Source of the DNA: an uncultured Clostridium sp.
Lineage (GTDB): Bacteria > Bacillota > Clostridia > TANB77 > CAG-508
Reading direction: 5' to 3'
Assembly (NCBI GenBank): GCA_946496575.1
Contig: CAMMHE010000012.1
Coordinates: 1 to 41,151, forward strand
DNA: 41,151 nt
Each line of letters begins with the position of its first letter. Within the stretch, counting starts at the first letter, position 1. Both the position numbers and the translations under genes were made by a program. Positions 4,130 through 40,170 of the stretch are shown one piece after another. The notes under the pieces are model-generated. The model made no database searches and had not been told where the DNA came from. It worked only from the letters and a program-made list of their open reading frames with translations.

Positions 4130-4549
4130 ATGATGGACAAGATTGCTATAATTAATGAGTTGTATTTTGAAGAAAAGAAAAATTTAACTGAAATAGCACA
4201 AATTATTGAAACATCAGTTAGCTACATTTCAAGGATTTTAAGAAAAGACCAAAGATATAAAGAGGAAAAAGAAAAACGAAAGAAAGATAATTTGATACAA
4301 AGGAGGGAAACTCAAAAAGAGTTAATATACACAAAACGAAAAAATAAAAAAAACACAGATTATATAGATATGAAAACACAACATGAAAACGCAGCAAAAG
4401 AGTTATCAAAACATTCTAGTATAGGAAATCAAGATTTAAGAAAATGGTGTAGTAGTGCTTATAAATATAATGAAAAGAAAAAATGTTATGAGTTTGATAC
4501 AAAGAATCTACTAAAGCCACCTGATTTTCCTATGTATATTAGGATATGA
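4130..4549 (+). CDS. Helix-turn-helix DNA-binding protein
   Basis: A 139-residue protein. Residues 1-42 form an HTH (IAIINELYFEEKKNLTEIAQIIETSVSYISRILRKD) of the sigma-70 region-4/transposase-like type, with a recognition helix around SVSYISRIL. A highly basic helical linker (about 43-80, rich in K/R/E) and a short C-terminal region without a recognised motif follow. It is probably a regulator of element genes. AAGGAG at 4121-4126 supports the ATG at 4130, with the adjacent ATG 4133 equally possible. It is followed 13 nt later by the next gene, so the two form an operon led by the structured leader at 3925-4027. Confidence 0.7.
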   Translation: MMDKIAIINELYFEEKKNLTEIAQIIETSVSYISRILRKDQRYKEEKEKRKKDNLIQRRETQKELIYTKRKNKKNTDYIDMKTQHENAAKELSKHSSIGNQDLRKWCSSAYKYNEKKKCYEFDTKNLLKPPDFPMYIRI

Positions 4550-4562
4550 AGGAGAAAATAAA

Positions 4563-5039
4563 ATGATTACAGAAAAGCAAGGGATAGCTTATGCTACAAT
4601 TACATTAGATCTGCTTTATAAAATGAAAGTTAAAGTAAATCATAAAAATTTTTCAGAGCAAATGAGATTAATTTATGATCTTTATGAGCCTGATGAAGTG
4701 GAAGAATTATATGAAAATATAGAAAGAAATAACGAGATAATAGAAAAAGCTATTTCTGGAAAAGCAAACTGTTATGTTGTCAATTCATATAATTCAAGAG
4801 AAAAACAAATGAAAATAATTAGAAAATTCTGCAAAGATAGAATAGAGCTAGGAAAAATATATATTTCAACACCAGGTGAAAATACAGATGCTTACTATAA
4901 ACTGATTCAAGACATTAGAAATAAAAATATGGATATTTTACTAATGAATGTATTTACAATTCTTGGTATGAGCGAAAGAGAACTAGCGATGATAATTCAT
5001 CTTTGCAGAGAAAATGATATAACATTTGTAGAAATTTAA
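4563..5039 (+). CDS. Degenerate serine-recombinase N-domain-like protein
   Basis: A 158-residue protein. Residues about 70-158 follow the order of strands and helices of a serine recombinase N-terminal domain: CYVVNSYNSREKQ, then GKIYISTPGE, then DIRNKNMDILLMNVFTILGM and a closing REN-DITFVEI. However, the canonical Y-x-R-x-S-x-x-x-Q start and the DRLxR helix are eroded, and no DNA-binding C-terminus is present. It is therefore unlikely to be an active recombinase and may be a regulatory or vestigial relative. The first 65 residues are helical and unassigned. It starts 13 nt after the HTH gene with GAAGGAG upstream. The family link is tentative; the gene itself is well supported by its ribosome site and compact spacing. 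Confidence 0.6.
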   Translation: MITEKQGIAYATITLDLLYKMKVKVNHKNFSEQMRLIYDLYEPDEVEELYENIERNNEIIEKAISGKANCYVVNSYNSREKQMKIIRKFCKDRIELGKIYISTPGENTDAYYKLIQDIRNKNMDILLMNVFTILGMSERELAMIIHLCRENDITFVEI

Positions 5040-5054
5040 AAGAGGTGTAGTAAA

Positions 5055-5165
5055 GTGAGTATATTATTATTTATAGCAGGTATGATGCTAGGTGCTATTG
5101 TTGCATTTGTATTACATTGTATTTTAATTGTTGGAAAACAGGCAGATGAAAACGCTAAAGATTAA
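5055..5165 (+). CDS. DUF3789-type single-pass membrane microprotein
   Basis: A 36-residue ORF starting with GTG (AGAGGTG at 5041-5047, 8 nt upstream). It is one hydrophobic helix (ILLFIAGMMLGAIVAFVLHCILIVG) with a short charged tail KQADENAKD. The size, the G-M-x-x-G-A helix and the G-K-Q-A-D tail match the DUF3789 microproteins common in clostridial conjugative and mobilizable elements. The function is unknown. It sits 15 nt after the preceding gene, in the same operon. Confidence 0.7.
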   Translation: MSILLFIAGMMLGAIVAFVLHCILIVGKQADENAKD

Positions 5166-5221
5166 TTTTTTTAGTTTAAATTTTTTCTCAAATACTAATA
5201 TAAATTAAATAATTAAATTTA

Positions 5222-5250
5222 AAAAAAGTCAGTAAATCTGGCTTTTTTAT
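5222..5250 (+). terminator. Rho-independent terminator
   Basis: An A-rich stem (5222-5232 with 5238-5248, one G-T pair) and a 5-nt loop end in TTTTTT. It closes the operon 4130-5165. Confidence 0.65.
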
Positions 5251-5263
5251 TATGGAGGTTTAA

Positions 5264-5536
5264 ATGAATAAGAGAGAATGTAAAAAATATATAAGGAAAG
5301 CCTTTTCAAATCTAAAAGCTCAACAAAAAAAAATCTCTATTGAAAATTTATCTATGGAAATGGATAAAGTAATTGAGCAAGAGAAGCAAGTATATATAGC
5401 ATACGCAAAAATTGGATTATATTTAATTAAAAATAGTGCAAATGAAATTACAGCAAATGAAATTATAAAAGAAATTGATGTTATTCCACAAGTATATAGT
5501 TTAGATGATTTATTAAAAAAAGCAAATACTATCTAA
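5264..5536 (+). CDS. Small helical hypothetical protein
   Basis: A 90-residue protein, almost entirely predicted helical, with no recognised domain. A basic N-terminus (NKRECKKYIRKAF) is followed by charged helices. TGGAGG at 5252-5257 supports the ATG. It lies immediately upstream of the excisionase-like gene and the two integrases, which suggests a part in control of the element or its recombination, but nothing in the sequence proves this. Confidence 0.65.
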   Translation: MNKRECKKYIRKAFSNLKAQQKKISIENLSMEMDKVIEQEKQVYIAYAKIGLYLIKNSANEITANEIIKEIDVIPQVYSLDDLLKKANTI

Positions 5537-5593
5537 ATTTTTTTCTCAAATAGAAAAAAATTTAATATGAAAATATAATAACGGAGGTATCCA

Positions 5594-5797
5594 ATGGAAG
5601 ATATAATTTTTAAAGAAAGGAAGTTTTATAATGTAAAAGATATACAAAATATTTTAGGAATTGGTCGAAGTAGAGCTTATGAATATTTAAAAGAAGTACA
5701 AAAGACTGGTGAACCGTTTAAAGTAATAAAAATAGGTACTATATATAAAATTCCAATTCAATCTTTTAATAACTGGATACAAAGTATGTCTGAATAG
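5594..5797 (+). CDS. Excisionase-like HTH protein
   Basis: A 67-residue winged-helix protein of the excisionase/MerR-like HTH_17 type: FYNVKDIQNILGIGRSRAYEYLKE (about residues 11-34) is the HTH and IKIGTIYKIPIQSFNNWI (about 46-63) is the wing and the terminal helix. Such proteins bend DNA at att sites and direct tyrosine integrases towards excision. It has ACGGAGG just upstream and is followed 18 nt later by an integrase gene, the usual xis-int order. Confidence 0.8.
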   Translation: MEDIIFKERKFYNVKDIQNILGIGRSRAYEYLKEVQKTGEPFKVIKIGTIYKIPIQSFNNWIQSMSE

Positions 5798-5815
5798 GGA
5801 GGGAGTAAATCAAAA

Positions 5816-6988
5816 ATGAAAAAAAAGAAAGTAGCTTTCTTTGAAAGAAACTCTTGGTATCATAGGACAAAAACATTGCTTCCAGATCATTCTATTAAAT
5901 ATGGAAAAAAGGGAGGCTTTAAGAGTGAGAAAGAAGCTGAAGAAAGCTATTTCAAAATGGCAGAAGAATTTGAAAGAAGTGTTTCTAAAACTATTATAGA
6001 GAACAAAAATAAAGTAACTCTAAAAAGATATTTAATATATTGGTTTGAAAATATTTATTCAATTAGAATAGAAAATACAACTCAAATGTTGGGAGCTTAT
6101 GTACTATATGATCTTATATTTCCTAATATTGAAGAAGATATTTTATTAAAATACATAAATATAGATTATTTAGACATTTTAATAAAAAAAACATCTAAAA
6201 TATGTGAATCAGCCCCAAACAAATCAAGAGAATTGTTAAATATTGCTTTTAAAGATGCTATTGAGGATGGATTTATTAATATAAATCCTGTAGAAGGAAC
6301 TAAAGCATATAAAAGGAAAAAAGCAAAGGTTGTAGTTTTCAATAAAAAAGAGTTAAAGAAATTTTTAAGATTAGTTTCTGAAGGGAACTGGTATTTAGAA
6401 ATTTTACTAGGTATATTTTGTGGATTGAGAAAAGGTGAAATTTTAGCATTAAAATTTTCTGATTTCAATATAGAGAAACAGACTTTAAAAATTAGTAGAC
6501 AATTAACAACCTGTAGTAGATTAAGTGATGAAATGGATAAAATAGGTTTTAAAGTTGAAGAATATTCATTAGGTACAAAAAGACCTAAAACAAATAATAG
6601 TTATAGAATTATAAAAGTTCCAAAAATTATTATTAATGAACTAGAGATAAGAAAAGAGTATATAGAAAATTTAAAAAGAATAAACTCTAAATTTATTGAT
6701 AATGATTTAGTTAGCTGTAAAGAAAATGGTGGCTTTCACGCTTTTTCAGCATTAAATAACTATATTACAAAGATATGTAACAAAAATAATTTACCTTGCA
6801 TCACAGTTCACTCTTTAAGACATATGTTTGCAACAATATTATTAGAAAGAGGTGTTGTACTTCAAAAAATTTCTGGTTTGTTAGGTCATGCTTCTATCCA
6901 AACTACATTTGAGTTATACTGCGACATAATGGATGAAAGTGAAAAGATTAATAAATTTATGAATAAGAACTTTAAGAAAAAGGAATGA
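5816..6988 (+). CDS. Tyrosine recombinase/integrase A
   Basis: A 390-residue phage-type integrase: an N-terminal arm-binding domain, a SAM-like core-binding domain (about 60-165) and a catalytic domain (about 170-385). Catalytic residues are visible: the box I Arg in GIFCGLRKGEI, HSLR of the H-x-x-R motif in HSLRHMFATILLE, His in GLLGHASIQTT, and the nucleophile Tyr in TFELYCDI. AGGGAGGGAG precedes the ATG. It would integrate or excise the island at 600-8400, probably with the Xis-like protein upstream. It is followed after only 6 nt by a second, different integrase, an uncommon tandem. Confidence 0.9.
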   Translation: MKKKKVAFFERNSWYHRTKTLLPDHSIKYGKKGGFKSEKEAEESYFKMAEEFERSVSKTIIENKNKVTLKRYLIYWFENIYSIRIENTTQMLGAYVLYDLIFPNIEEDILLKYINIDYLDILIKKTSKICESAPNKSRELLNIAFKDAIEDGFININPVEGTKAYKRKKAKVVVFNKKELKKFLRLVSEGNWYLEILLGIFCGLRKGEILALKFSDFNIEKQTLKISRQLTTCSRLSDEMDKIGFKVEEYSLGTKRPKTNNSYRIIKVPKIIINELEIRKEYIENLKRINSKFIDNDLVSCKENGGFHAFSALNNYITKICNKNNLPCITVHSLRHMFATILLERGVVLQKISGLLGHASIQTTFELYCDIMDESEKINKFMNKNFKKKE

Positions 6989-6994
6989 TATTAA

Positions 6995-8320
6995 TTGAAT
7001 ATTGATGAAATATTAGGAGAACAATATATTGATTGGAAAGTAAAACCTGTGATGCACATTGAAGGAAAATATGGATTTAGAATAGTTTTAAAGATGTCAG
7101 ATGGAAACGAGAAAATTAAACAGAAATCAGGATTTAAAACAAAAACAGAGGCTAACAAAGAGAGAAATAATGTTATTGCAGATCTTACTAATGGAACATA
7201 TATAATTAATACTAAAATTAAAGTTGGTCCTTTTATGCTTTTTTGGCTAGAAAAAGCAAAAAAACCTAATATTACTAATGATTCTTATGTAGCATATTCT
7301 AATGCTATAAATAAATACATTATACCAGTTTTAGGAAATATGTATTTAACAAGTATCAATAGAAAAAATATTAAATCTGTTTATAAATTTGCATCTAAAT
7401 CGACTACAACAGGAATTAGGCTTATAGAAACAGTATTAAAAACATCTTTAGATTATGCAGTACATAAAAAATTACTAATAAAGAATCCAACTTTAAATGT
7501 ATCAAAAAAAGATAAGAAAAAAAACACATGGATTGTAAATGTTGATAGTACAAAAACACTATCTTTAGAACAAGTAAAAATTTTAGTAAAAGCAAGTGAA
7601 AACACAAGAATACATATGCAAGTGATATTTGCTGTCCTAATGGGATTAAGAAGAGGCGAAATTAATGGCTTAAAGTATGAAGACATAGACTATACACACA
7701 AAACACTCAAGATTCAAAGACAATTAGGAGTAAAAGCTAATTCTAACAAAAAAGATTTTGCACCTAAAACATATACAAAACAAGAAATACCAACAAAAAC
7801 AGAATCAAGCAATAGAGAATTAATTATACCTGATTATGTTTTTGAAGAAATTTTAAAAGAAAAAGAAAAATATAATAAAAACAAGAAAAGGTATCAAAAT
7901 AAAAAGCAGTATGGTTTTCAAGATTTGGGATATATCTGTTGTTCTAATCTCGGAAGACCAAGAAGTAGGAGTTACGCATCTACTCATTTTAAGCAATTAT
8001 TAAAAGATAATAATTTACCTGATATTAAATGGCACGATTTACGAAGAACATATTGTACTTTATTATTAAAGAATGATTTTAGCCCAAAGGCAGTTTCAAA
8101 AATGATGGGACATTCAAAAGAATTAATTACTGTTGATATATATGGTGATAACAAAGAAATAATAGAAGATTGTTTAGAAGAATTAGAACCATATATTGAT
8201 GAGGTAATACCAAAAGAGAAAGAATATGATTTTTCTGAAGATGTGGATTATATAATTGCTTTAGAAGATTATATAAAAGATTTAAAAATCTTACACGAAT
8301 TTTGCAAGATAGCAATTTAG
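6995..8320 (+). CDS. Tyrosine recombinase/integrase B
   Basis: A 441-residue tyrosine recombinase: an N-terminal AP2-like arm-binding domain (KYGFRIVLKMSDGNEKIKQKSGFKTKTEA), a core-binding domain (about 75-170) and a catalytic domain with Arg in LMGLRRGEI, HDLR in IKWHDLRRTYCT, His in MMGHSKELIT and Tyr in VDIYGD. All catalytic positions are intact. The start is a TTG (6995) with AAAAAGGA about 11 nt upstream; no ATG in frame is available before the conserved N-terminus. An acidic 55-residue tail (EELEPYIDEVIPKEKEYDF) extends past the catalytic Tyr. It is translationally close to integrase A, so the two may act together, and it ends in a terminator directly before uvrB. Confidence 0.88.
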   Translation: MNIDEILGEQYIDWKVKPVMHIEGKYGFRIVLKMSDGNEKIKQKSGFKTKTEANKERNNVIADLTNGTYIINTKIKVGPFMLFWLEKAKKPNITNDSYVAYSNAINKYIIPVLGNMYLTSINRKNIKSVYKFASKSTTTGIRLIETVLKTSLDYAVHKKLLIKNPTLNVSKKDKKKNTWIVNVDSTKTLSLEQVKILVKASENTRIHMQVIFAVLMGLRRGEINGLKYEDIDYTHKTLKIQRQLGVKANSNKKDFAPKTYTKQEIPTKTESSNRELIIPDYVFEEILKEKEKYNKNKKRYQNKKQYGFQDLGYICCSNLGRPRSRSYASTHFKQLLKDNNLPDIKWHDLRRTYCTLLLKNDFSPKAVSKMMGHSKELITVDIYGDNKEIIEDCLEELEPYIDEVIPKEKEYDFSEDVDYIIALEDYIKDLKILHEFCKIAI

Positions 8321-23199: not shown

Positions 23200-23251
23200 A
23201 TCAATGCTTTTAGAGATTGGTAAAGTAAACATAAATATGAAAACACACTAA

Positions 23252-23276
23252 ATTGTTTGCATTTTGTTTGCAAAAT
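23252..23276. repeat. Integrase arm-type repeat, copy A
   Basis: Two tandem 11-bp units, each beginning with TTGTTTGCA, 53 nt inside attL. A reverse-oriented TTGCAAACAAA lies at 23333-23343. The same 24-bp motif recurs at 39474 and 40232, near the other end of the element, as expected of arm-type integrase sites. Confidence 0.65.
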
Positions 23277-23358
23277 GTTTTCATAGGTCTATTTAAAATC
23301 TTTGAAATACTTGAAAATAAAGAATTACAGAGTTGCAAACAAAGTGAATAGAAATTAT

Positions 23359-23391
23359 AGAAATGTTATCATTCGTGGTAGCATTTCTTTT
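23359..23391 (+). terminator. Terminator-like hairpin between secA and the integrase
   Basis: A 10-bp stem (23359-23368 with 23379-23388, one G-T) is followed by TTTG. It stands 34 nt before the integrase start and would shield the integrase from secA readthrough or act as an attenuator. Confidence 0.5.
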
Positions 23392-23424
23392 GTTTACATT
23401 CGAATTTTGAAAGGAGAATGTAAA

Positions 23425-24696
23425 ATGTCAAATGTAACAATTCAAAAGAGAGGAAAATACTATCAATACAAATTTGAAATTGCAAAAGTTGATGGTAAAA
23501 GAAAATTTTTAAACAAATCAGGATTCAAAACAAAAGCTGAAGCAGAAAAAGAAGGAATAATTGCATATAATGCTTATATTAATACAGGACATGATTTTGA
23601 ACCAAGTGATATGAATTATTCAGACTTGTTAGATTATTGGATAGAAAAATATTGCTATGTTAATTTAAAATATCATACTATAGAGGCTTATCAAAGTATT
23701 ATTAAAAATCATATTAAGCCTAATATTGGATTTTATAGATTATCACAAATTACAAGAGCAATGTTACAAGAATTTATTAATCAAATATATATTAATAAAT
23801 CATTTAGTAAAAATTTTTTGAATAATATAAAAAAAGTTATAAAATGTTCAATGAATTATGCATATGAATATGATTATATAAAAATAAATCCTGCAATAGG
23901 ATTAAAATTACCTAAATATGATATTCCACCAAAAGATCCAGCCCATATATTTACTAATGAAGAAATTAATATGATATTAGAAAGATTTAAAAATAATCAT
24001 TGTGTTTACTATGCATTTCTTACTGCATATTGTACTGGATTAAGAGTTGCTGAAGTATTTGCATTAACTTGGAATGACATAGATTTCAGGAATAAAACAA
24101 TTAGCGTAAATAAAAACATACTAAAAAAGAATCAAAATGGTGCTACAAAGAAAAGACATATAAGTGGTAATTCAACAACAGTATGGTATTTTGGAACTTG
24201 TAAAACACAAACAAGCTATAGAACTATACCAATAGGAGATACTTTATTAAATGCACTTAAAACTTATAAGAAAGAGCAAGAAGAAAATAAAATTAATTAT
24301 GGTGATACATATATGAAACATTATAAAAAGAGTGTTATTAATTCATATAATAACAAAACAGAAACAAAAATTGTAAATGCATATTCTGAAATTGATGTAG
24401 CATTAGAAGAAGTAGATTTTGTTTTTGTAAAGAAAAACGGAGTATATGAAGGTACAGATAGTTGTAAATATCCTTTTAAAGTAATTCATTATGAATTGGG
24501 AATACCTTGCAGATTTCACGACTTTAGAGATACTCATGCGACTAGACTTATTGAGTCAGGAGCAGATATAAAGGCAGTTTCAAAAAGACTAGGACATAGA
24601 AATATTGATATAACATATAACATTTATGTAAGAGTAACGGAAAAAATGGAAAATGAAACAGCAAATAAATTTGAAGAAATATGCAATTTTTTATAA
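23425..24696 (+). CDS. Tyrosine integrase of the secA-inserted element
   Basis: A 423-residue integrase: AP2-like arm-binding domain (VTIQKRGKYYQYKFEIAKVDG), core-binding domain (about 60-170) and catalytic domain. Catalytic residues are complete: Arg in CTGLRVAEVFAL, HDFR in CRFHDFRDTHATR, His in RLGHRNIDIT and Tyr in YNIYVRVT. It sits 225 bp from the attL core, the usual place for the enzyme that recognises that att site, so it is the best candidate for integration into secA. AAAGGAG (about 23410) decides the ATG at 23425 against an in-frame TTG at 23302. It is clearly paralogous to the integrase at 28032 (shared N-terminus VTIQKRGKYYQYKFE). Confidence 0.92.
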   Translation: MSNVTIQKRGKYYQYKFEIAKVDGKRKFLNKSGFKTKAEAEKEGIIAYNAYINTGHDFEPSDMNYSDLLDYWIEKYCYVNLKYHTIEAYQSIIKNHIKPNIGFYRLSQITRAMLQEFINQIYINKSFSKNFLNNIKKVIKCSMNYAYEYDYIKINPAIGLKLPKYDIPPKDPAHIFTNEEINMILERFKNNHCVYYAFLTAYCTGLRVAEVFALTWNDIDFRNKTISVNKNILKKNQNGATKKRHISGNSTTVWYFGTCKTQTSYRTIPIGDTLLNALKTYKKEQEENKINYGDTYMKHYKKSVINSYNNKTETKIVNAYSEIDVALEEVDFVFVKKNGVYEGTDSCKYPFKVIHYELGIPCRFHDFRDTHATRLIESGADIKAVSKRLGHRNIDITYNIYVRVTEKMENETANKFEEICNFL

Positions 24697-24746
24697 AGAT
24701 AATAGTTGAAAGATATATTAAATATAATAAAATTTTACAAAAATGA

Positions 24747-24775
24747 TTGACAATTTATGTAAATGATGATATAAA
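24747..24775 (+). promoter_or_regulatory. Strong promoter of the large ncRNA
   Basis: TTGACA at 24747-24752, a 17-bp spacer and TATAAA at 24770-24775, a near-perfect sigma-A site with no ORF downstream for 600 nt. Confidence 0.75.
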
Positions 24776-24781
24776 ATAAGT

Positions 24782-25364
24782 GTATTCAATAAGAATATAA
24801 CTGAAAAATTAAATATAGATATTTCCCTGTTGTAGGTTGAGCCACTATGTAACTTGATGATAAAATAGCGGTTGATTTTAAAAATCCAAAAAGTACTTCG
24901 CAAGAAAATACTTTGCCCTACTGATCGGAAGCCAGAAGTATAAGGGGCCCTTTTGTTAGTTTCGTAGGCCTGAGTTGGTTTTTATAATTCTTACAGTTAT
25001 AATATAATAATCTCCAACAAATAGATAGAAGTAATATGAAGTCGTAAGTGCTACAGATGTCTTATTTAATTCACAGTAAACAATTATATAATAATGTCCA
25101 AAAACAGAAATGTATTGGGATTATTAAAAGTTACTTTTTATAAAAAAAGTACATTTGTTTATTGAGGATTAAATAGACTTCTGAATATCTCTTATGACTT
25201 TTTTGATATTCAAAAAAGTTAAGAAAAATTTTATGCAAGTATGCAAAAATTTTTCAGTAAGAGTAAACGGAACTTCTGTATCATTTAATGGCTTTTTAGG
25301 GAGATATTTTTAATATATAGATATGATATAAGGTTTCGTTTAGTAAAAAAGCGAAGCCTTTTTT
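24782..25364 (+). ncRNA. Candidate large structured ncRNA (ROOL-like context)
   Basis: About 580 nt without an ORF or ribosome site, bounded by a strong promoter and a strong terminator. A 10-bp long-range helix joins the two ends (24819-24828 with 25298-25307). Inside are several hairpins: one at about 24840-24873, an 8-bp stem at 25182-25189 with 25205-25212, a TACTTTTT stem near 25131-25151 and a 12-13-bp stem near 25223-25255. The 24820-25000 part is more GC-rich and looks conserved (for example CTACTGATCGGAAGCCAGAAG). Size, mobile-element location and closed architecture resemble the ornate large RNAs of Firmicutes (ROOL, GOLLD class); I cannot confirm the class without a covariance search. 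It fills the gene-free gap 24697-25397. Confidence 0.65.
25330..25364 (+). terminator. Terminator of the large ncRNA
   Basis: A 9-bp stem with one G-T pair (25330-25338 with 25352-25360) ends in TTTTTTC. The next ribosome site starts 20 nt later. Confidence 0.8.
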
Positions 25365-25397
25365 CTTGTTATGCTACTTGCTAGAAAGGAGGAAAAC

Positions 25398-26387
25398 ATG
25401 GAGGATTTAAAAATTATTAATGCAGACAACTTATTATACACAACACTTACTGAAAGTGAATTTATAGTTGATGAAATATTACCTGTTGGACTTCATATAT
25501 TCTGTGGAGCACCAAAAGTAGGAAAAAGTTGGTTGATGCTTGATTTATGTATTAAAGTTTCAAAAGGCGAAGAATTATGGGGCTTAAAAACAAATAAATG
25601 TGATGTTTTATATTTAGCACTTGAAGATACACATCAAAGATTACAAAAAAGATTATTTAAATTAACTGATGATATAGATTCTAATTTTCATATAGCAATA
25701 GAGTCAAACAAAATTACAAATGGATTAGTAATGCAATTAGAAAATGCTATAAAACAATATCCTAATATAAGATTAGTTGTTATAGATACTCTTCAGAAAG
25801 TAAGAAAACAAAATAATGATATTAATTATTCTGCTGATTATGGAGAAATGACAACATTAAAAGAATTTGCAGATAAAAATAAATTAGCAATTATATTAGT
25901 TCATCATTTGAGAAAACAAGATGATAGTGATGTTTTTAATAAAATATCAGGTACAACAGGAATAATGGGGAGTAGTGACACAACATTTATATTAGAAAAG
26001 AAATCTAGAGATGATTCAGTTGCAACATTATTTGTAACTGGTAGAGATGTTGAATATCAAACATTTACATTAAGGTTTGAAGAATGTAGATGGAATTTAA
26101 TAGAAAGGTCTTTTCAAAAAGAACTTGAAATAAAAAATGCTCCAGAGATAGTAGGTAACGTTATATCTTTTATCAATGAAAAAGAAATGTGGCAGGGAAC
26201 TGCAACAGAGTTATTGGAAATATTAAATAAAAAAGATATAACACCACAATATCTTACTAAAGTTCTAAACGAATATAGTAAAACAATTTTATTATCTAAT
26301 AAAATAAGTTTTACAACATCAAGGACAAGCACAGCTCGTTTAGTAACTTTAAGGAAAGATATTGATAAAGCTACAGAGCTTAGCTAA
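25398..26387 (+). CDS. RepA-like AAA ATPase (AAA_25)
   Basis: A 329-residue RecA-fold ATPase. Walker A GAPKVGKSW (about 37-45), YLALEDTHQRLQKR (the ED motif typical of RepA/AAA_25), Walker B RLVVIDTL (about 127-134) and the sensor VHHLRK. The C-terminal 80 residues (ATELLEILNKKDITPQYLTKVLNEY) look like a winged-helix. Such proteins are hexameric helicases or regulators encoded beside MobV relaxases on small mobilizable elements, where they may support replication of the excised circle. AAAGGAGG at 25384-25391 places the start at ATG 25398; an in-frame ATG at 25371 lacks a site. Confidence 0.85.
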   Translation: MEDLKIINADNLLYTTLTESEFIVDEILPVGLHIFCGAPKVGKSWLMLDLCIKVSKGEELWGLKTNKCDVLYLALEDTHQRLQKRLFKLTDDIDSNFHIAIESNKITNGLVMQLENAIKQYPNIRLVVIDTLQKVRKQNNDINYSADYGEMTTLKEFADKNKLAIILVHHLRKQDDSDVFNKISGTTGIMGSSDTTFILEKKSRDDSVATLFVTGRDVEYQTFTLRFEECRWNLIERSFQKELEIKNAPEIVGNVISFINEKEMWQGTATELLEILNKKDITPQYLTKVLNEYSKTILLSNKISFTTSRTSTARLVTLRKDIDKATELS

Positions 26388-26388
26388 A

Positions 26389-26419
26389 AATGACATTAGC
26401 ATTTATGATAATGTCATCA
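26389..26419. repeat. 9-bp inverted repeat after the RepA-like gene
   Basis: ATGACATTA pairs with TAATGTCAT around a 10-nt loop, within a run of ATGACA/TGTCAT motifs that continues to about 26465. Possible binding site for the RepA-like protein. Confidence 0.4.
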
Positions 26420-26596
26420 ATGACAATGATGACGCTAAAAGTATGTAGCGATAGAATTGTCATTGAAGGAAGTCCAGATGGAAAATCTGGCACACCAACT
26501 TTTGTAAAAAGTGTAGTGTGTTACACTCATAAATGCGATTTTGAAAAATTGAGTAAAACTGAATTAGCAGATATTATAAAAATTTTTCAAAAATAG
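26390..26596 (+). CDS. Small ORF overlapping oriT, doubtful
   Basis: A 68-codon frame starting 3 nt after the RepA-like gene. The first 16 residues (MTLAFMIMSSMTMMTL) arise from ATGACA-type repeats and look artificial. The remainder (CSDRIVIEGSPDGKSG..., CYTHKCDFEKLSKTELADII) looks protein-like. There is no Shine-Dalgarno, but translation could couple from the upstream stop. The frame spans the oriT hairpin. It may be a real small element gene, possibly starting downstream, or only a decayed remnant. Confidence 0.35.
   Translation: MTLAFMIMSSMTMMTLKVCSDRIVIEGSPDGKSGTPTFVKSVVCYTHKCDFEKLSKTELADIIKIFQK
26510..26527. other. oriT hairpin of MobV (pMV158) type
   Basis: AGTGTA-GTGTGT-TACACT, a 6-bp stem with a GTGTGT loop. 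The pMV158 origin of transfer has the same hexamer loop on an analogous stem and is nicked as GTGTG/T. The MobV relaxase gene starts 264 bp downstream. The loop identity and the adjacent relaxase make this a confident oriT candidate. Confidence 0.7.
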
Positions 26597-26598
26597 GA

Positions 26599-26636
26599 TG
26601 AGTGATTTTTTACTTGCTAAAAGTAAAAAGCACTCA
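26599..26636 (+). terminator. Hairpin after the RepA-like/oriT region
   Basis: TGAGTG with CACTCA enclosing a TTTTTACTT/AAGTAAAAA stem. No T tail follows, so it may be part of an origin rather than a terminator. Confidence 0.4.
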
Positions 26637-26660
26637 GACGGATAAGCATATGAGTGTTAT

Positions 26661-26751
26661 CACGTTTTGATTTTAAATAAATAAAATGCAAATTAAAAAT
26701 TGAACAAGTGTGTCATAGTAATTTCATCGTCATTATCGTCATCAAAACGTG
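26661..26751. repeat. 11-bp inverted repeat upstream of mobV
   Basis: CACGTTTTGAT (26661-26671) and its exact reverse complement (26741-26751) flank 69 bp, ending 40 bp before the mobV start. It could be a regulatory or replication-origin structure. Confidence 0.5.
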
Positions 26752-26790
26752 TGCTACAAAGAAATGCAATAAATGAAGGGAGAATAATAT

Positions 26791-27783
26791 ATGGCATATA
26801 CAATATTGAGATTTAAAAAGGATAAAGGAGGAGCCGTAGCTGGGTGTGAAAGACATAATGAGAGAAAAAAGGAGGCATATAAAAGCAATCCAGATATAGA
26901 TGTAAATAAATCACAATATAATTATCATACAGTACAAGCACCACAATACACATATTCAAGGAAAATAAAAGACTTGATAAAGAAATATGGGTGTAAAGTT
27001 AGAAAAGATAGTGTGAAATTGGTTGAAACTTTAATTACAGCTACCCCAGAGTTTATGAATAAATTAACTGAAAAAGAAAAAAGAGAATATTTTGAAAGGG
27101 CAACAGAATTTATTAAACAGGAAATAGGAGAAGATAGAATAATATCAGCAGTAGTTCATATGGATGAGGCAACTCCACATATGCATTTGGCATTTTGCCC
27201 AATAAATAAAGATGGAAAATTATCAGCTAAAAGTATACTGGGAAATCAAAAGTCACTATCACAGTGGCAAACAAAATTCTATGAATTCATGCATGAAAGA
27301 TGGAAGGAGCTAGAGAGAGGAAGATCAGCACAAGAAACTAAAAGAAAGCATATTCCAACATGGTTATTTAAAATGGCAGATAATCTAGATTATTTATATC
27401 ACAAATTATCTAACGTAATAGAAAACATTAATTTAATTGGTATGAAAAAAGACAAAGCAGAGGCAATTGAATTATTATCTGAGTTTGTACCAAAAGCTCA
27501 AAAATTTTCAGCTAAAGTGAATTCATATAAAGATTATATTAGAGAGTTGGAAATTAAGGTAATCAATCAAAAATACGATAACAAAGAACTTATGGAAGAA
27601 AATAATGAATTGAAAAAAGAAATGGGAGATAAAGAATTTGAAACTAGCATGAAATTAATGAATATGCAAAATCAAATTAAGAAGTATGAAAAATATATAA
27701 AGAAAATTCCAAAAGATGTCCTTGATGAAATTGATAGAAAAGAACGAGAACATAATTATAAAGATAAGGAGATGGAAAGATAA
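26791..27783 (+). CDS. MobV/Pre-family relaxase
   Basis: A 330-residue plasmid mobilization relaxase. Motif I is RHNER with His22, the position of the catalytic His22 reported for MobM of pMV158. Motif III is HMDEATPHMH (about 123-132), giving the metal ligands H123, E126, H130 and H132. The C-terminal 100 residues are a charged coiled coil. It would nick the GTGTGT hairpin at 26510 and lead single-strand transfer using another element's secretion system. AAGGGAG is about 9 nt before the ATG. Its stop overlaps the start of the excisionase gene (TAATG). Confidence 0.93.
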   Translation: MAYTILRFKKDKGGAVAGCERHNERKKEAYKSNPDIDVNKSQYNYHTVQAPQYTYSRKIKDLIKKYGCKVRKDSVKLVETLITATPEFMNKLTEKEKREYFERATEFIKQEIGEDRIISAVVHMDEATPHMHLAFCPINKDGKLSAKSILGNQKSLSQWQTKFYEFMHERWKELERGRSAQETKRKHIPTWLFKMADNLDYLYHKLSNVIENINLIGMKKDKAEAIELLSEFVPKAQKFSAKVNSYKDYIRELEIKVINQKYDNKELMEENNELKKEMGDKEFETSMKLMNMQNQIKKYEKYIKKIPKDVLDEIDRKEREHNYKDKEMER

Positions 27784-28028
27784 TGAAAACAAATGTAATT
27801 GAAGAAAAAATGATTTATACAACACATGAAGTTGCAAAAATACTTCATTCAAGTCCAAATTATATTTATGAATTAATCGAAAAAGGTAAATTAAAAGCGA
27901 TAAAGTTAAAAAGCTTTAAAATAAGAAAATCTGCTGTTGAAGAATTTTTAAAAGAAAATGAAGGAAATGATCTATCAGATATTGATAATATTAAAAAGAT
28001 AATAACTAATAATGAAGAAGGACAGTAA
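27783..28028 (+). CDS. Excisionase-like HTH protein
   Basis: An 81-residue protein with an HTH_17-type domain: MIYTTHEVAKILHSSPNYIYELIEKGKLKAIKLKSFKIRKSAVEEFL (about residues 10-57), the usual form of excisionases that bend att DNA. The acidic tail is disordered. It starts in the TAATG overlap with mobV and ends 3 nt before the second integrase, forming a mob-xis-int operon. Confidence 0.85.
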   Translation: MKTNVIEEKMIYTTHEVAKILHSSPNYIYELIEKGKLKAIKLKSFKIRKSAVEEFLKENEGNDLSDIDNIKKIITNNEEGQ

Positions 28029-28031
28029 GGT

Positions 28032-29309
28032 ATGGGAAATGTTACTATTCAAAAAAGAGGAAAATATTATCAATATAAATTTGAAGTATCAAAAGTAGAT
28101 GGAAAAAGAAAATTTATAAATAAATCTGGGTTTGAAACAAAAGATGAAGCTATAAAGGCAGGAAATATAGCATATACAGAATATTTAAATACAGGATTAG
28201 TATTTAAGGAAAAAGAAATATCATTTAGTGATTATTTAGATTATTGGTATGAAAACTATTGTGAAGTAAATTTAAAATATAATACAAGAAGAACTTATAA
28301 AACAATAATGGATAAGTATTTGAAAAAGGAACTTGGAAAGTATAGATTGAATTCTTTAACAAGTGTTAAATTAAATTCATTTATAGTTGATTTGTGTAAT
28401 AGATATAATTATAAAAAATCTTATTATAGTAATATTTTAAAAGTTCTAAAGAATTGTTTTAGAGTTGCAACTGATGTATATGGTTTTATAAAGTATAATC
28501 CAACAATTACCTTGAAACTTCCTAAAATAGAAGATAACAATGAATTTGAAAAACATTTGTATAATAAGCAAGAAATAAATAGAATTTTAGAGAGATTTAA
28601 AAATGATGACACATTTACATGTGCATTTATTACAAGTTGTTTTACAGGAATGAGAACAGGAGAAGTATGTAGCTTAACATGGGAAGATATTGACTTTAAG
28701 AATAGAATTATAAATGTAAAACATACAGTGTATGATAAGCCAAAAGATGAAAAAGGTAGATGGTATATTGGAACAACAAAAACAAAACAGGGAACTAGAC
28801 AGGTTAATATGTGTAAAACTTTATATAATGCATTGTTAAATTATAAAAAGAAACAAAAATATTTAAAGAAAATGTATGGAAATCAATATATGAGTTATCA
28901 TTTTGAGGATGTTAAAAATAAATATGGAAAAGTTGTAGAAAAACGTATTGTTCAAAATCAAAATAATATTTTACAAATAAATAATGCAAATATGGTATTT
29001 GTACGAGAAAACGGTAAATATGTTGGAAGAAATATTTTGAACTATCCATTTAAGATAATTCATAAAGAGCTTGGAATTGAAAATTGTAGATTTTATGATT
29101 TAAGAGGTAGTTATGCAACTACAATTTTAAGAAATGGCGTCGAAATAAGAGATGTTGCAGATATTTTAGGACATAAATTTATTGAAACTACTGAAAATTT
29201 TTATATCTTAAGTACAGATGAGAATAAAAAGGATGTAAGTGATGTTTTTGATAATCTTATGAGTTCAGATACAATTAATGAAATTATTAAATATGAGATA
29301 GCTTATTAA
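28032..29309 (+). CDS. Second tyrosine integrase, probably impaired
   Basis: A 425-residue paralogue of the integrase at 23425, with the same AP2-like start (VTIQKRGKYYQYKFEVSKVDG) and length. Catalytic Arg (FTGMRTGEVCSL), the second Arg (YDLRGSYATT), His of GHKF and the nucleophile Tyr (NFYIL) are present. The His of the H-x-x-R box is replaced by Tyr, however: FYDLR here against FHDFR in the paralogue. Loss of this His usually weakens catalysis. It is the last gene of the repA-mobV-xis-int module, so it may once have served a separate, smaller element now fused into this one. Confidence 0.85.
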   Translation: MGNVTIQKRGKYYQYKFEVSKVDGKRKFINKSGFETKDEAIKAGNIAYTEYLNTGLVFKEKEISFSDYLDYWYENYCEVNLKYNTRRTYKTIMDKYLKKELGKYRLNSLTSVKLNSFIVDLCNRYNYKKSYYSNILKVLKNCFRVATDVYGFIKYNPTITLKLPKIEDNNEFEKHLYNKQEINRILERFKNDDTFTCAFITSCFTGMRTGEVCSLTWEDIDFKNRIINVKHTVYDKPKDEKGRWYIGTTKTKQGTRQVNMCKTLYNALLNYKKKQKYLKKMYGNQYMSYHFEDVKNKYGKVVEKRIVQNQNNILQINNANMVFVRENGKYVGRNILNYPFKIIHKELGIENCRFYDLRGSYATTILRNGVEIRDVADILGHKFIETTENFYILSTDENKKDVSDVFDNLMSSDTINEIIKYEIAY

Positions 29310-29328
29310 GAAAATAAAATTTATTATA

Positions 29329-29364
29329 TAGATAAACTAATTTTGGTAGATAAACTAATTTTGG
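29329..29364. repeat. 18-bp tandem repeat after the second integrase
   Basis: Two perfect copies of TAGATAAACTAATTTTGG (29329-29346, 29347-29364) and the start of a third. Its place 20 nt after int suggests recombinase or Xis sites of the inner element. Confidence 0.6.
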
Positions 29365-29372
29365 TAGAACTA

Positions 29373-29401
29373 TTGCAATATTATGTAAAATATGCTATAA
29401 T
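29373..29401 (+). promoter_or_regulatory. Extended -10 promoter of the AspRS gene
   Basis: TTGCAA at 29373-29378, a 17-bp spacer and TATAAT at 29396-29401 preceded by TGC. No T-box leader is visible in the roughly 65-nt 5' UTR. Confidence 0.7.
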
Positions 29402-29471
29402 TTAGCTAGGTCTGTTTTGAAAATGCAACTTTATAATTAACATCTTAGAAAAACACAAGGAGGAAATAAGG

Positions 29472-30770
29472 ATGAAATCAATTGCAAAGCTTATACCTGA
29501 AGAAGAAACTTGCATTTTTGGCTTCGTAAGTAATATAAAGAATACGAAGTATATGCTTTTTCTTATGGTAAGAGAAGAAACAGGAGAAATACAGGTTAGT
29601 ATTGACAAGTCAGAGAACCCTGAGGTTTTTGCTGCCGCAGAAGGATTGACTAGAGAATCTACTGTAACAGTATATGGAAAGATGGTCTTAAATACTCATG
29701 TAAGAAATGGTGGGAAGGAATTTATTCCTACTAAACTTGAAGTTGAGACTATTGCAAATCCGTTGCCTATAGGAGAGGAATCTGGAAAATCTGCACAAAT
29801 TGAACACAGAGCATTAAGTATGCGTTTTGCCAAAAATCATCTCGCTATGCAAGTAGCTTCAGCAGTTGAGATGGCTATTTACGCTTATTGGAGCCAAAAT
29901 GAATACACTGTTATTCACACTCCGAAGCTTTTAGGTACACCATCTGAATCTGGAGCAGAGCTTTTTAAGCTTGAGTATTTTGGAAGCGAAGCATATTTGG
30001 CTCAGAGTAATCAACTGTACAAACAGATGGCTATTCAGGCAGGATTTAGAAAATTTGCTGAAATCGGACCTTCTTTCAGAGCTGATAACTCTAATACGAG
30101 CAGACATCAGACGGAATTTACTACTGTTGACTGTGAAATCGCAGGTCCAAGAAGCGTAGAAGAGGTTATGGCTGAACAGGAAAAACTTATTAAATATGTA
30201 TTTGAAAGTTTGATGGCACAGCGAGAACTTGTCAATAAGGTCAAGGAAAAATTTGGTGTAGAAATTGAAAAACCGATTTTTACAAGAATGACTTTTAAAG
30301 AGGCTAAAGAAATCTTGAAGAAGATTGGAGTTTTCGAAGAAAGCGCCAAAGATTTCTCTCCTGAAGAAGAAAGACAGATTTGTCGTTATGCTCTTGAAAA
30401 GTTTGGAGCACAGTTTGTGTTTGTGACAGAGTATCCGATTTCTGTGAGACCTTTTTATCACAAGAGACATTCTGAAACAACAACCGAGTCATACGACTTA
30501 CTGTTTAACGGAACCGAAATCACCACGGGTGCTGTAAGAGAACACAGACCCGAAATATTGGTAAAGCAGATCAGAGAAAAAGCTGAAGAGCTTAATTCTC
30601 CTAATTTAGAAAAATCATTGGAATCATATATTGAATTTTTCAACTATGGTTCTGTGCCACACGGTGGATTTGGAATGGGAGAAGCAAGATTTATTCAGCA
30701 GTTACTCAAAGCAGAATCTATTGAGGATGTAGTATTCCTTTCTAGAACACCTAACAGACTTTATCCATAA
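29472..30770 (+). CDS. Archaeal/eukaryotic-type aspartyl-tRNA synthetase
   Basis: A 432-residue class IIb synthetase: N-terminal OB-fold anticodon domain (about 13-95) and catalytic core with SESGAELFKLEYFGSEAYLAQS (about 158-179), motif 2 FRADNSNTSRHQTEF (202-216) and motif 3 HGGFGMGEARF (397-407). The size and lack of the long GAD insertion of bacterial AspRS place it with archaeal/eukaryotic-type AspRS or its AsnRS relatives; the QLYKQM-type segment favours AspRS. It charges tRNA-Asp, and possibly tRNA-Asn if non-discriminating. It is monocistronic, sits on a mobile element and is richer in G+C than the operon behind it, all pointing to transfer. Immunity against an AspRS inhibitor is a plausible role. 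AAGGAGG is 8 nt before the ATG. Confidence 0.85.
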   Translation: MKSIAKLIPEEETCIFGFVSNIKNTKYMLFLMVREETGEIQVSIDKSENPEVFAAAEGLTRESTVTVYGKMVLNTHVRNGGKEFIPTKLEVETIANPLPIGEESGKSAQIEHRALSMRFAKNHLAMQVASAVEMAIYAYWSQNEYTVIHTPKLLGTPSESGAELFKLEYFGSEAYLAQSNQLYKQMAIQAGFRKFAEIGPSFRADNSNTSRHQTEFTTVDCEIAGPRSVEEVMAEQEKLIKYVFESLMAQRELVNKVKEKFGVEIEKPIFTRMTFKEAKEILKKIGVFEESAKDFSPEEERQICRYALEKFGAQFVFVTEYPISVRPFYHKRHSETTTESYDLLFNGTEITTGAVREHRPEILVKQIREKAEELNSPNLEKSLESYIEFFNYGSVPHGGFGMGEARFIQQLLKAESIEDVVFLSRTPNRLYP

Positions 30771-40026: not shown

Positions 40027-40170
40027 ACAATATAAGTAGGTTATTTGAAGTGGACAATAGTGCCATCCACACACCTTTAAAAGGTCAAAAGAGATGCAGG
40101 ACTTGGCACACCTGCCAAATAACCAACGGTAAAAAAGGTAGAGATTTAGGTCTTTACCTTTAATTTTTTT
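40027..40170 (+). ncRNA. Structured ncRNA with four-way junction and kissing loop
   Basis: About 145 nt with its own promoter and terminator and no ORF. P1 is a 9-bp perfect helix (40039-40047 with 40116-40124) enclosing three hairpins: P2 GTGGA/TCCAC (40050-40054 with 40066-40070), P3 ACCTT/AAGGT (40073-40077 with 40081-40085) and P4 GCAGG/CCTGC (40096-40100 with 40111-40115). The P2 loop carries GTGCCA (40060-40065) and the P4 loop TGGCAC (40104-40109), an exact 6-nt complement, so the loops can kiss. P4 and P1 are directly adjacent and can stack. I recognise no described class; it could be a ligand-binding or protein-binding RNA. Confidence 0.7.
40134..40170 (+). terminator. Terminator of the small structured ncRNA
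   Basis: An 11-bp stem with one G-T pair (40134-40144 with 40151-40161) is followed by TTTTTTT. Confidence 0.85.

Follow-up and report, generated by a model that had tools for sequence, protein, structure and literature searches.

The question raised by this locus is what occupies the roughly 580 nt between a tyrosine integrase gene and the mobilization genes of an integrative mobilizable element in an uncultured Clostridium sp. (GTDB order TANB77, family CAG-508), and what it does there. The DNA analyzed, referred to here as the window, comprises positions 1 to 41,151 of contig CAMMHE010000012.1 (assembly GCA_946496575.1). Large structured RNAs of bacterial mobile elements are few and mostly without known function, and the constant position of this one, ahead of MobV transfer genes, gives a strong hint at its function. 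As judged from the sequence and its homologues, positions 24782-25364 of the forward strand very probably are a real structured RNA gene of a MobV module. The RNA family is large, structured and apparently undescribed, and heads MobV mobilization modules of small integrative mobilizable elements. An RNA gene heading the transfer genes of mobile elements of gut bacteria is probably an unnamed part of what controls or executes their spread. If the RNA does control or join transfer, it would offer a handle on the movement of small hitchhiking elements, resistance carriers included.

A predicted RNA gene with its own promoter and terminator

The features of the element are compiled in Table 1. The AAA_25 gene has its likely start at 25398, after AAAGGAGG, in a frame that is open from 25371. 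The stretch at 26710-26749 is a candidate oriT variant by its likeness to MobV oriTs. An integrase gene is also present upstream of the RNA in the homologous loci L010, L011, L012, L013, L014, L037 and L047. Between the two window flanks tested for element ends, no direct repeat longer than 9 bp was found, and no tRNA gene was found in the window.

Table 1. Positions of the RNA gene, its structural parts and the neighboring genes in the window
Feature	Position	Strand	Remarks
Tyrosine integrase gene (upstream of RNA)	23302-24696	+	One of two flanking integrases
Promoter	24747-24775	+	TTGACA, 17-nt spacer, TATAAA, TG one base 5' of -10; recurs across homologue subtypes
Structured RNA gene	24782-25364	+	About 583 nt; predicted from promoter, fold, terminator and absence of an ORF
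5' hairpin	24781-24799	+	At the predicted transcript start
P1, 5' strand	24800-24810	+	ACUGAAAAAUU; conserved long-range helix
End helix of the sequence-only reading, 5' strand	24819-24828	+	Partner 25298-25307
Central long-helix domain	25015-25199	+	Model from type D homologues matches weakly: 21.2 bits, E 0.07
3' module	25195-25256	+	Penultimate helix plus hairpin, loop region UAUGCAAGUAUGC; match of model R1
P1, 3' strand	25248-25258	+	AAUUUUUCAGU; doubles as 3' arm of the local 3' hairpin
End helix of the sequence-only reading, 3' strand	25298-25307	+	Partner 24819-24828
Intrinsic terminator	25330-25364	+	Hairpin 25330-25360 plus T tract; recurs in type A and Ap homologues
AAA_25 (RepA/DnaB-like) ATPase gene	25398-26387	+	Directly 3' of RNA; Pfam AAA_25, E 2.3e-27
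68-aa ORF	26390-26596	+	Without family match; conserved next to AAA_25 in type A loci
Candidate oriT variant	26710-26749	+	GTGTCATAGT..., about 80 nt 5' of relaxase gene; weak
MobV relaxase gene	26791-27783	+	NCBIfam MobV, 169.8 bits (cut-off 100); Pfam Mob_Pre
Excisionase-like HTH gene	27783-28028	+	Domain match
Tyrosine integrase gene (downstream)	28032-29309	+	Domain match

An earlier reading of the letters alone (the sequence-only reading) had described a structured RNA of about 580 nt on a mobile element, lacking an ORF and bounded by a near-consensus promoter and a strong terminator, and this description holds. The promoter, with its -35 at 24747-24752, its -10 at 24770-24775 and the TG of an extended -10 at 24767-24768, carries 11 of 12 consensus letters as read from the sequence; a simple promoter scan missed it because that scan requires a T at position 6 of the -10. 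Both the -35 and the extended -10 were found again in the homologue subtypes. In all 28 unique 5' segments the 5' hairpin starts 7-8 nt past the TAT of the -10, and its stems comprise several unlike sequences, each of them self-complementary. At the other end, terminator-like sites in the region 23200-29500 number three, as compared to 1.0 expected. No ORF longer than 39 aa lies wholly inside the RNA gene on the plus strand, and the longest overlapping one on the minus strand has 61 aa. Furthermore, the distance from the 5' motif to the 3' motif varies between 288 and 457 nt among 24 unique homologues, with differences that are not always multiples of three; thus, there is no conserved reading frame.

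The predicted RNA folds with a minimum free energy of -142.4 kcal/mol (z -6.35), and none of 100 shuffled sequences folds as well. The opposite strand of the region also folds with a z of -4.04, and AT-rich palindromes score on both strands, as would be expected if the structure had arisen by chance in AT-rich intergenic DNA. Such an origin has a negligible probability in view of the shuffling result, the conservation across the family and the pair changes in the 3' module, which go beyond both shuffled and slid controls as described below.

Covariation in the 3' module

For comparisons, the homologues were divided by eye and by simple motifs into subtypes labeled A, Ap, B, C and D. A model of the 3' module (model R1) was built from 21 type B, type C and L111 sequences, with type A left out. 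R1 recovers the window RNA where it is expected (38.5 bits, E 2.6e-4), and 55 of the 57 sources to which it was applied were matched.

Pair counts for the 3' module were taken from the best match per locus, which are 55 of the 90 rows of an alignment termed A4 and comprise 50 unique rows; A4 as a whole also contains antisense and secondary matches, which arise from the AT-rich, palindromic hairpins. Since A4 was fitted to the model structure, these counts lean toward the model, and near relatives are counted separately. With this in mind, 1256 of 1309 cells are paired (96.0%), as compared to 45-66% with slid partners, and 21 of the 29 pairs are changed on both sides, while 500 shuffles gave a mean of 11.7 and a maximum of 17. 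G-U cells outnumber A-C cells in the 3' module (83 vs 11) as well as in the type A alignment (97 vs 13), which argues that the plus strand is what folds.

A second model (R2), built on the type D core, was applied to the type A core and gave weak matches at the same place in each of four loci (E 0.0019 to 0.07). In L011, L010 and L047 this place corresponds to 25015-25199 of the window (E 0.0019 to 0.032). In L078 and L118, R2 also matches the antisense strand with 33.6 bits, and palindromes can therefore yield scores of this size.

Two long-range helices

A 10-bp helix joining the two ends of the RNA (24819-24828 with 25298-25307) had been proposed in the sequence-only reading. This helix exists and is nearly certain when the window sequence is folded alone (pair probability 0.91-1.0), but it is poorly conserved: standard pairs form in only 63 of 89 cells of a nine-row homologue alignment, and it is therefore not the conserved closing helix. 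A different helix is kept instead. The 11-bp helix P1, formed by 24800-24810 and 25248-25258, has its pairing intact in 99 of 99 cells of the nine-row type A alignment. It is also included in the RNAalifold structure of the nine type A rows, which has 118 pairs, 17 of them changed on both sides at least once. As only one of the 99 cells varies (a G-U), P1 itself represents conservation and not covariation.

In single-sequence folding P1 has a probability of 0 and costs about 13 kcal/mol relative to the optimum. Competition with the local 3' hairpin and a crossing with the helix of the sequence-only reading probably keep it out of that optimum. Together, the local hairpin and the latter helix win by about 13 kcal/mol, so that P1 and the 3' hairpin may be alternative structures. 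Types A and Ap keep the CAGT at the end of the 3' arm constant although the arm of the local hairpin (AAG or ACG) no longer matches it. In the inspected type D loci, 5' ACTGAAAAATT and 3' AATTTTTCAGT are both gone, a joint loss that counts as one lineage-level event in related sequences. The retention of CAGT without its local partner and the joint loss in type D make a long-range P1 credible.

Distribution of the RNA

The homologues form one RNA family whose subtypes share the promoter, the 5' hairpin and the 3' module. A nucleotide search with the window RNA gave matches in 16 of 390 genomes of the CAG-508 family. With the RNA of L022 as query, 60 of 385 genomes of the order TANB77 were matched, 58 of them in the same family as the window and two, partially, in another family. 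A class-wide scan with the 3'-module model under strict filters, by which weak matches are lost, returned two of 391 genomes, both in the family of the window. A pattern scan of the genome_contigs collection yielded 20 stretches, all from metagenome assemblies named Clostridia, Clostridiales, Clostridium or Clostridiaceae; the same kind of scan of viral_contigs gave none, and a search of the phages collection gave no match. The genome of the window itself carries a second copy, of a different subtype, on contig C46. In L023, L038, L044, L050 and L072 the 3' motif is present without the 5' motif. The RNAs of L022 and L036 are nearly identical from ACTGAAAAATT on and differ in promoter and 5' hairpin, as if a block had been exchanged.

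Among 72,556 plasmid records, five carry one RNA copy each, and all five are conjugative plasmids of Enterobacteriaceae; a search of 20,395 E. coli records gave none. The copy on these IncHI2-type plasmids is of type C (L026; L140, pD610-HI2). One copy of the RNA has thus already arrived in enterobacterial IncHI2-type plasmids beside an aminoglycoside resistance gene. On pD610-HI2, the RNA adjoins aac(6')-Ie/aph(2'')-Ia in a Tn4451-like element that has TnpW-family, TnpV-family, MobV and DUF4368 genes. The MobV protein encoded there is 95% identical to the MobV of an element of gut Clostridia.

Tn4451 has a gene for a MobV relaxase, and IncP plasmids mobilize it (PMC5704250, in part). Several of the RNA-bearing elements resemble Tn4451/Tn4453 in combining MobV with a large serine recombinase, and the plasmid copy also in its TnpW- and TnpV-family genes. 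The window element differs from Tn4451/Tn4453 by its tyrosine integrases and its AAA_25 gene.

Association of the RNA with MobV modules

A MobV or AAA_25 gene lies downstream on the same strand at 49 of 55 RNA sites, a count in which closely related copies are entered separately. Two further sites are too short to tell, and the four sites without such a gene are L062, where mobV is deleted, L065 with a truncated RNA, L038, a contig-end fragment, and L077, a remnant. In L065 and L038, the remnants of RNA and oriT-like DNA are followed by similar short DNA and an apparent tRNA-gene end.

The reverse search, with the relaxase of L022 against 243 genomes, gave 26 places in 21 genomes. The RNA is present upstream of the relaxase in 21 of the 26 places of this clade; the five relaxases without it (L127, L129, L131, L133 and L135) have no more than 0-75 nt of upstream sequence before the contig ends. 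In the other subtypes, the RNA mostly lies about 170-440 nt upstream of a different MobV relaxase, so that it accompanies two unlike MobV clades. All 11 loci examined in these subtypes have an oriT-like sequence (AAGTGTCATAGTGGGTTACATACTTTC and variants) 91-162 nt 5' of the relaxase gene; such sequences are candidate oriTs by their likeness to MobV oriTs. A large serine recombinase gene often follows MobV in these subtypes, and the small elements L036, L040, L034, L032 and L048 comprise the RNA, the oriT-like site, mobV and the serine recombinase. In L018, L019, L022, L024 and L026, genes 5' of the RNA promoter tend to point away from it, and a divergent promoter-like stretch gives this side the look of a cargo slot.

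On the sequences searched, the association is not general for MobV. No RNA motif was found in L083-L110, 28 loci matching the window relaxase, not all of which have 1500 nt of upstream sequence, nor at the MobV copies on contigs C45, C24 and C49 of the window's own genome. A Subdoligranulum plasmid (L142) has an apparent AAA_25 gene, an oriT-like site and MobV, and no match of model R1. Because such MobV loci exist without it, the RNA forms a module of its own, separate from oriT.

This bears on the alternative that the region acts as single-stranded DNA, its plus strand folding during transfer. Single-strand origins and Frpo-like sites are signals of this kind, the region adjoins the candidate oriT, and the plus strand folded as DNA reaches a z of -6.95. 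A transcript is indicated, however, by the double-strand promoter, by the hairpin that sits exactly at the start point in 28 of 28 variants and by the intrinsic terminator downstream, and oriT-like DNA with MobV occurs in L142 without the structured region. We therefore regard a single-strand signal as very unlikely.

A possible leader of the transfer genes

What the RNA does can be approached from its position. The sequence features lead us to favor, tentatively and at somewhat less than even chances, a long cis-acting leader or attenuator that governs read-through into the transfer genes. RNA polymerase would start at the RNA's own promoter, and most transcripts would end at or near its 3' end, giving a stable RNA; read-through would carry transcription on into the AAA_25 and relaxase genes and so provide their mRNA. 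The 3' arm AAUUUUUCAGU would pair either with the arm of the local hairpin or with the 5' ACUGAAAAAUU, and this exchange would be the likely switch for read-through, perhaps sensed by a protein of the element or of the host. Support for the switch comes from correlated presence and absence of its strands and not from many compensatory changes, since these strands are largely invariant.

The leader is favored by the location of the RNA directly upstream of MobV or AAA_25 on the same strand in most sites, by its strong promoter, its 5'-end hairpin and its conserved multi-helix fold, and, for types A and Ap, by the strong terminator that separates the RNA from the gene. In none of 11 intervals separating the RNA from the gene that follows was a promoter with at least 10 of 12 letters found; thus, the transfer genes probably need read-through, either from the RNA promoter or from farther upstream. 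Together with the terminator of types A and Ap, this arrangement is that of an attenuated leader, in which the competing pairings of the 3' arm would be a plausible switch. However, types B and D have only an AT-rich 3' hairpin without a clear U tract, so that an attenuator is not evident there, and the absence of P1 from the single-sequence fold also speaks against the switch. In addition, 300-580 nt of elaborate structure are more than a leader needs. The leaders of pT181/pIP501-type plasmid rep genes are structured, have a terminator just before the gene and use alternative pairing of arms; they are shorter and controlled by antisense RNA. The window RNA is longer than these, and no strong antisense promoter stands out.

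A further argument against the leader comes from L062. Here the RNA and the oriT-like site are intact (1604-1720 and downstream) and a small gene and the recombinase are kept, whereas mobV is reduced to a short 3' remnant, which is not predicted for a leader of mobV. This arrangement fits better with the main rival, an RNA acting in trans in mobilization, e.g. in the relaxosome or in relaxase delivery, although the deletion in L062 may be recent. We consider a trans-acting RNA somewhat less likely than the leader. In its favor, the RNA is among the very few constant parts of the small elements and stays with two unlike MobV clades. There is also a precedent, as the sgm-sRNA of SGI1, which derives from a primary RNA of 650-700 nt beside oriT, is required for mobilization (PMC9299015, in part). 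Compared by description, the window RNA is alike in lying within an integrative mobilizable element beside a candidate oriT and mobilization genes. SGI1, in contrast, has the tyrosine-recombinase-like MpsA/MpsB and other hosts, and because it uses MpsA and not MobV, the parallel is functional only. Complementarity between the RNA and the oriT or mob leader does not exceed that of shuffled sequences except for one 13-nt match in L034 (maximum 11 in 20 shuffles). The MobV locus L142, with AAA_25 and an oriT-like site and without an R1 match, and the 28 other MobV loci of the family without the motif likewise argue against a role in trans.

A stronger form of this idea would make the RNA a new class of large noncoding RNA and an obligate third component, beside oriT and MobV, in a widespread family of small mobilizable elements, acting in transfer and timing the event by the partner exchange between its 5' end and the 3' hairpin. 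We give this form about one chance in four; if true, MobV transfer would be RNA-assisted in these elements. The RNA subtypes are small enough for laboratory tests in E. coli.

Relation to known large RNAs

Rfam 15 presumably holds the ROOL, GOLLD, OLE and raiA families. No Rfam covariance model reached its gathering score in the RNA stretch or in the scanned homologues, and at E values up to 10 the window gave only seven unrelated chance matches, with none to ROOL, GOLLD, OLE or raiA. The membership in one of these four classes that the sequence-only reading had left to such a scan is thus not borne out in the window or in the scanned homologues.

The resemblance to ROOL and GOLLD noted in that reading applies in part. 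ROOL, GOLLD and OLE form RNA-only complexes, and ROOL and GOLLD belong to phages and prophages, where tRNA islands are often close by (PMC12286853, in part). The window RNA shares with the three RNAs its size class, its elaborate fold and the lack of an ORF, and with ROOL and GOLLD also the location in mobile DNA; unlike these two, it has no phage genes or tRNA islands beside it and is followed by a MobV/AAA_25 operon. The sequence-only reading is thus right in so far as a mobile element carries a large RNA with a structure that is supported by covariation in the homologues, but neither an Rfam match nor the genomic context links this RNA to ROOL or GOLLD. One might nevertheless imagine a large RNA that is unrelated to transfer and only carried along with the mob genes, such as an RNA-only assembly like ROOL/GOLLD or a decoy against host defence. 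The size, the elaborate fold, the variable interior and the conserved ends recall ROOL, GOLLD and OLE, but the position and strand beside the mob operon are strict and an Rfam match is lacking, and we judge this explanation unlikely.

ARRPOF is a further large RNA of a mobile replicon (PMC12641628, in part), and its likeness to the window RNA is by description only. In the open-access literature we found no description pointing to the MobV-associated RNA. The main text of a study of candidate structured RNAs from human microbiomes (PMC8040213) does not contain relaxase, mobiliz- or conjugat-, and its supplements may list the RNA without comment; the available part of a review on integrative mobilizable elements (PMC5704250) does not mention an sRNA.

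Two observations concern other parts of the window. Positions 4130-8320 contain a sigma-70 region 4-like, a resolvase-like and two tyrosine integrase genes, and perhaps represent another integrated element. At 40040-40123 on the plus strand lies a skipping-rope RNA (RF02924; 68.8 bits), the sole Rfam match at gathering score in the window.
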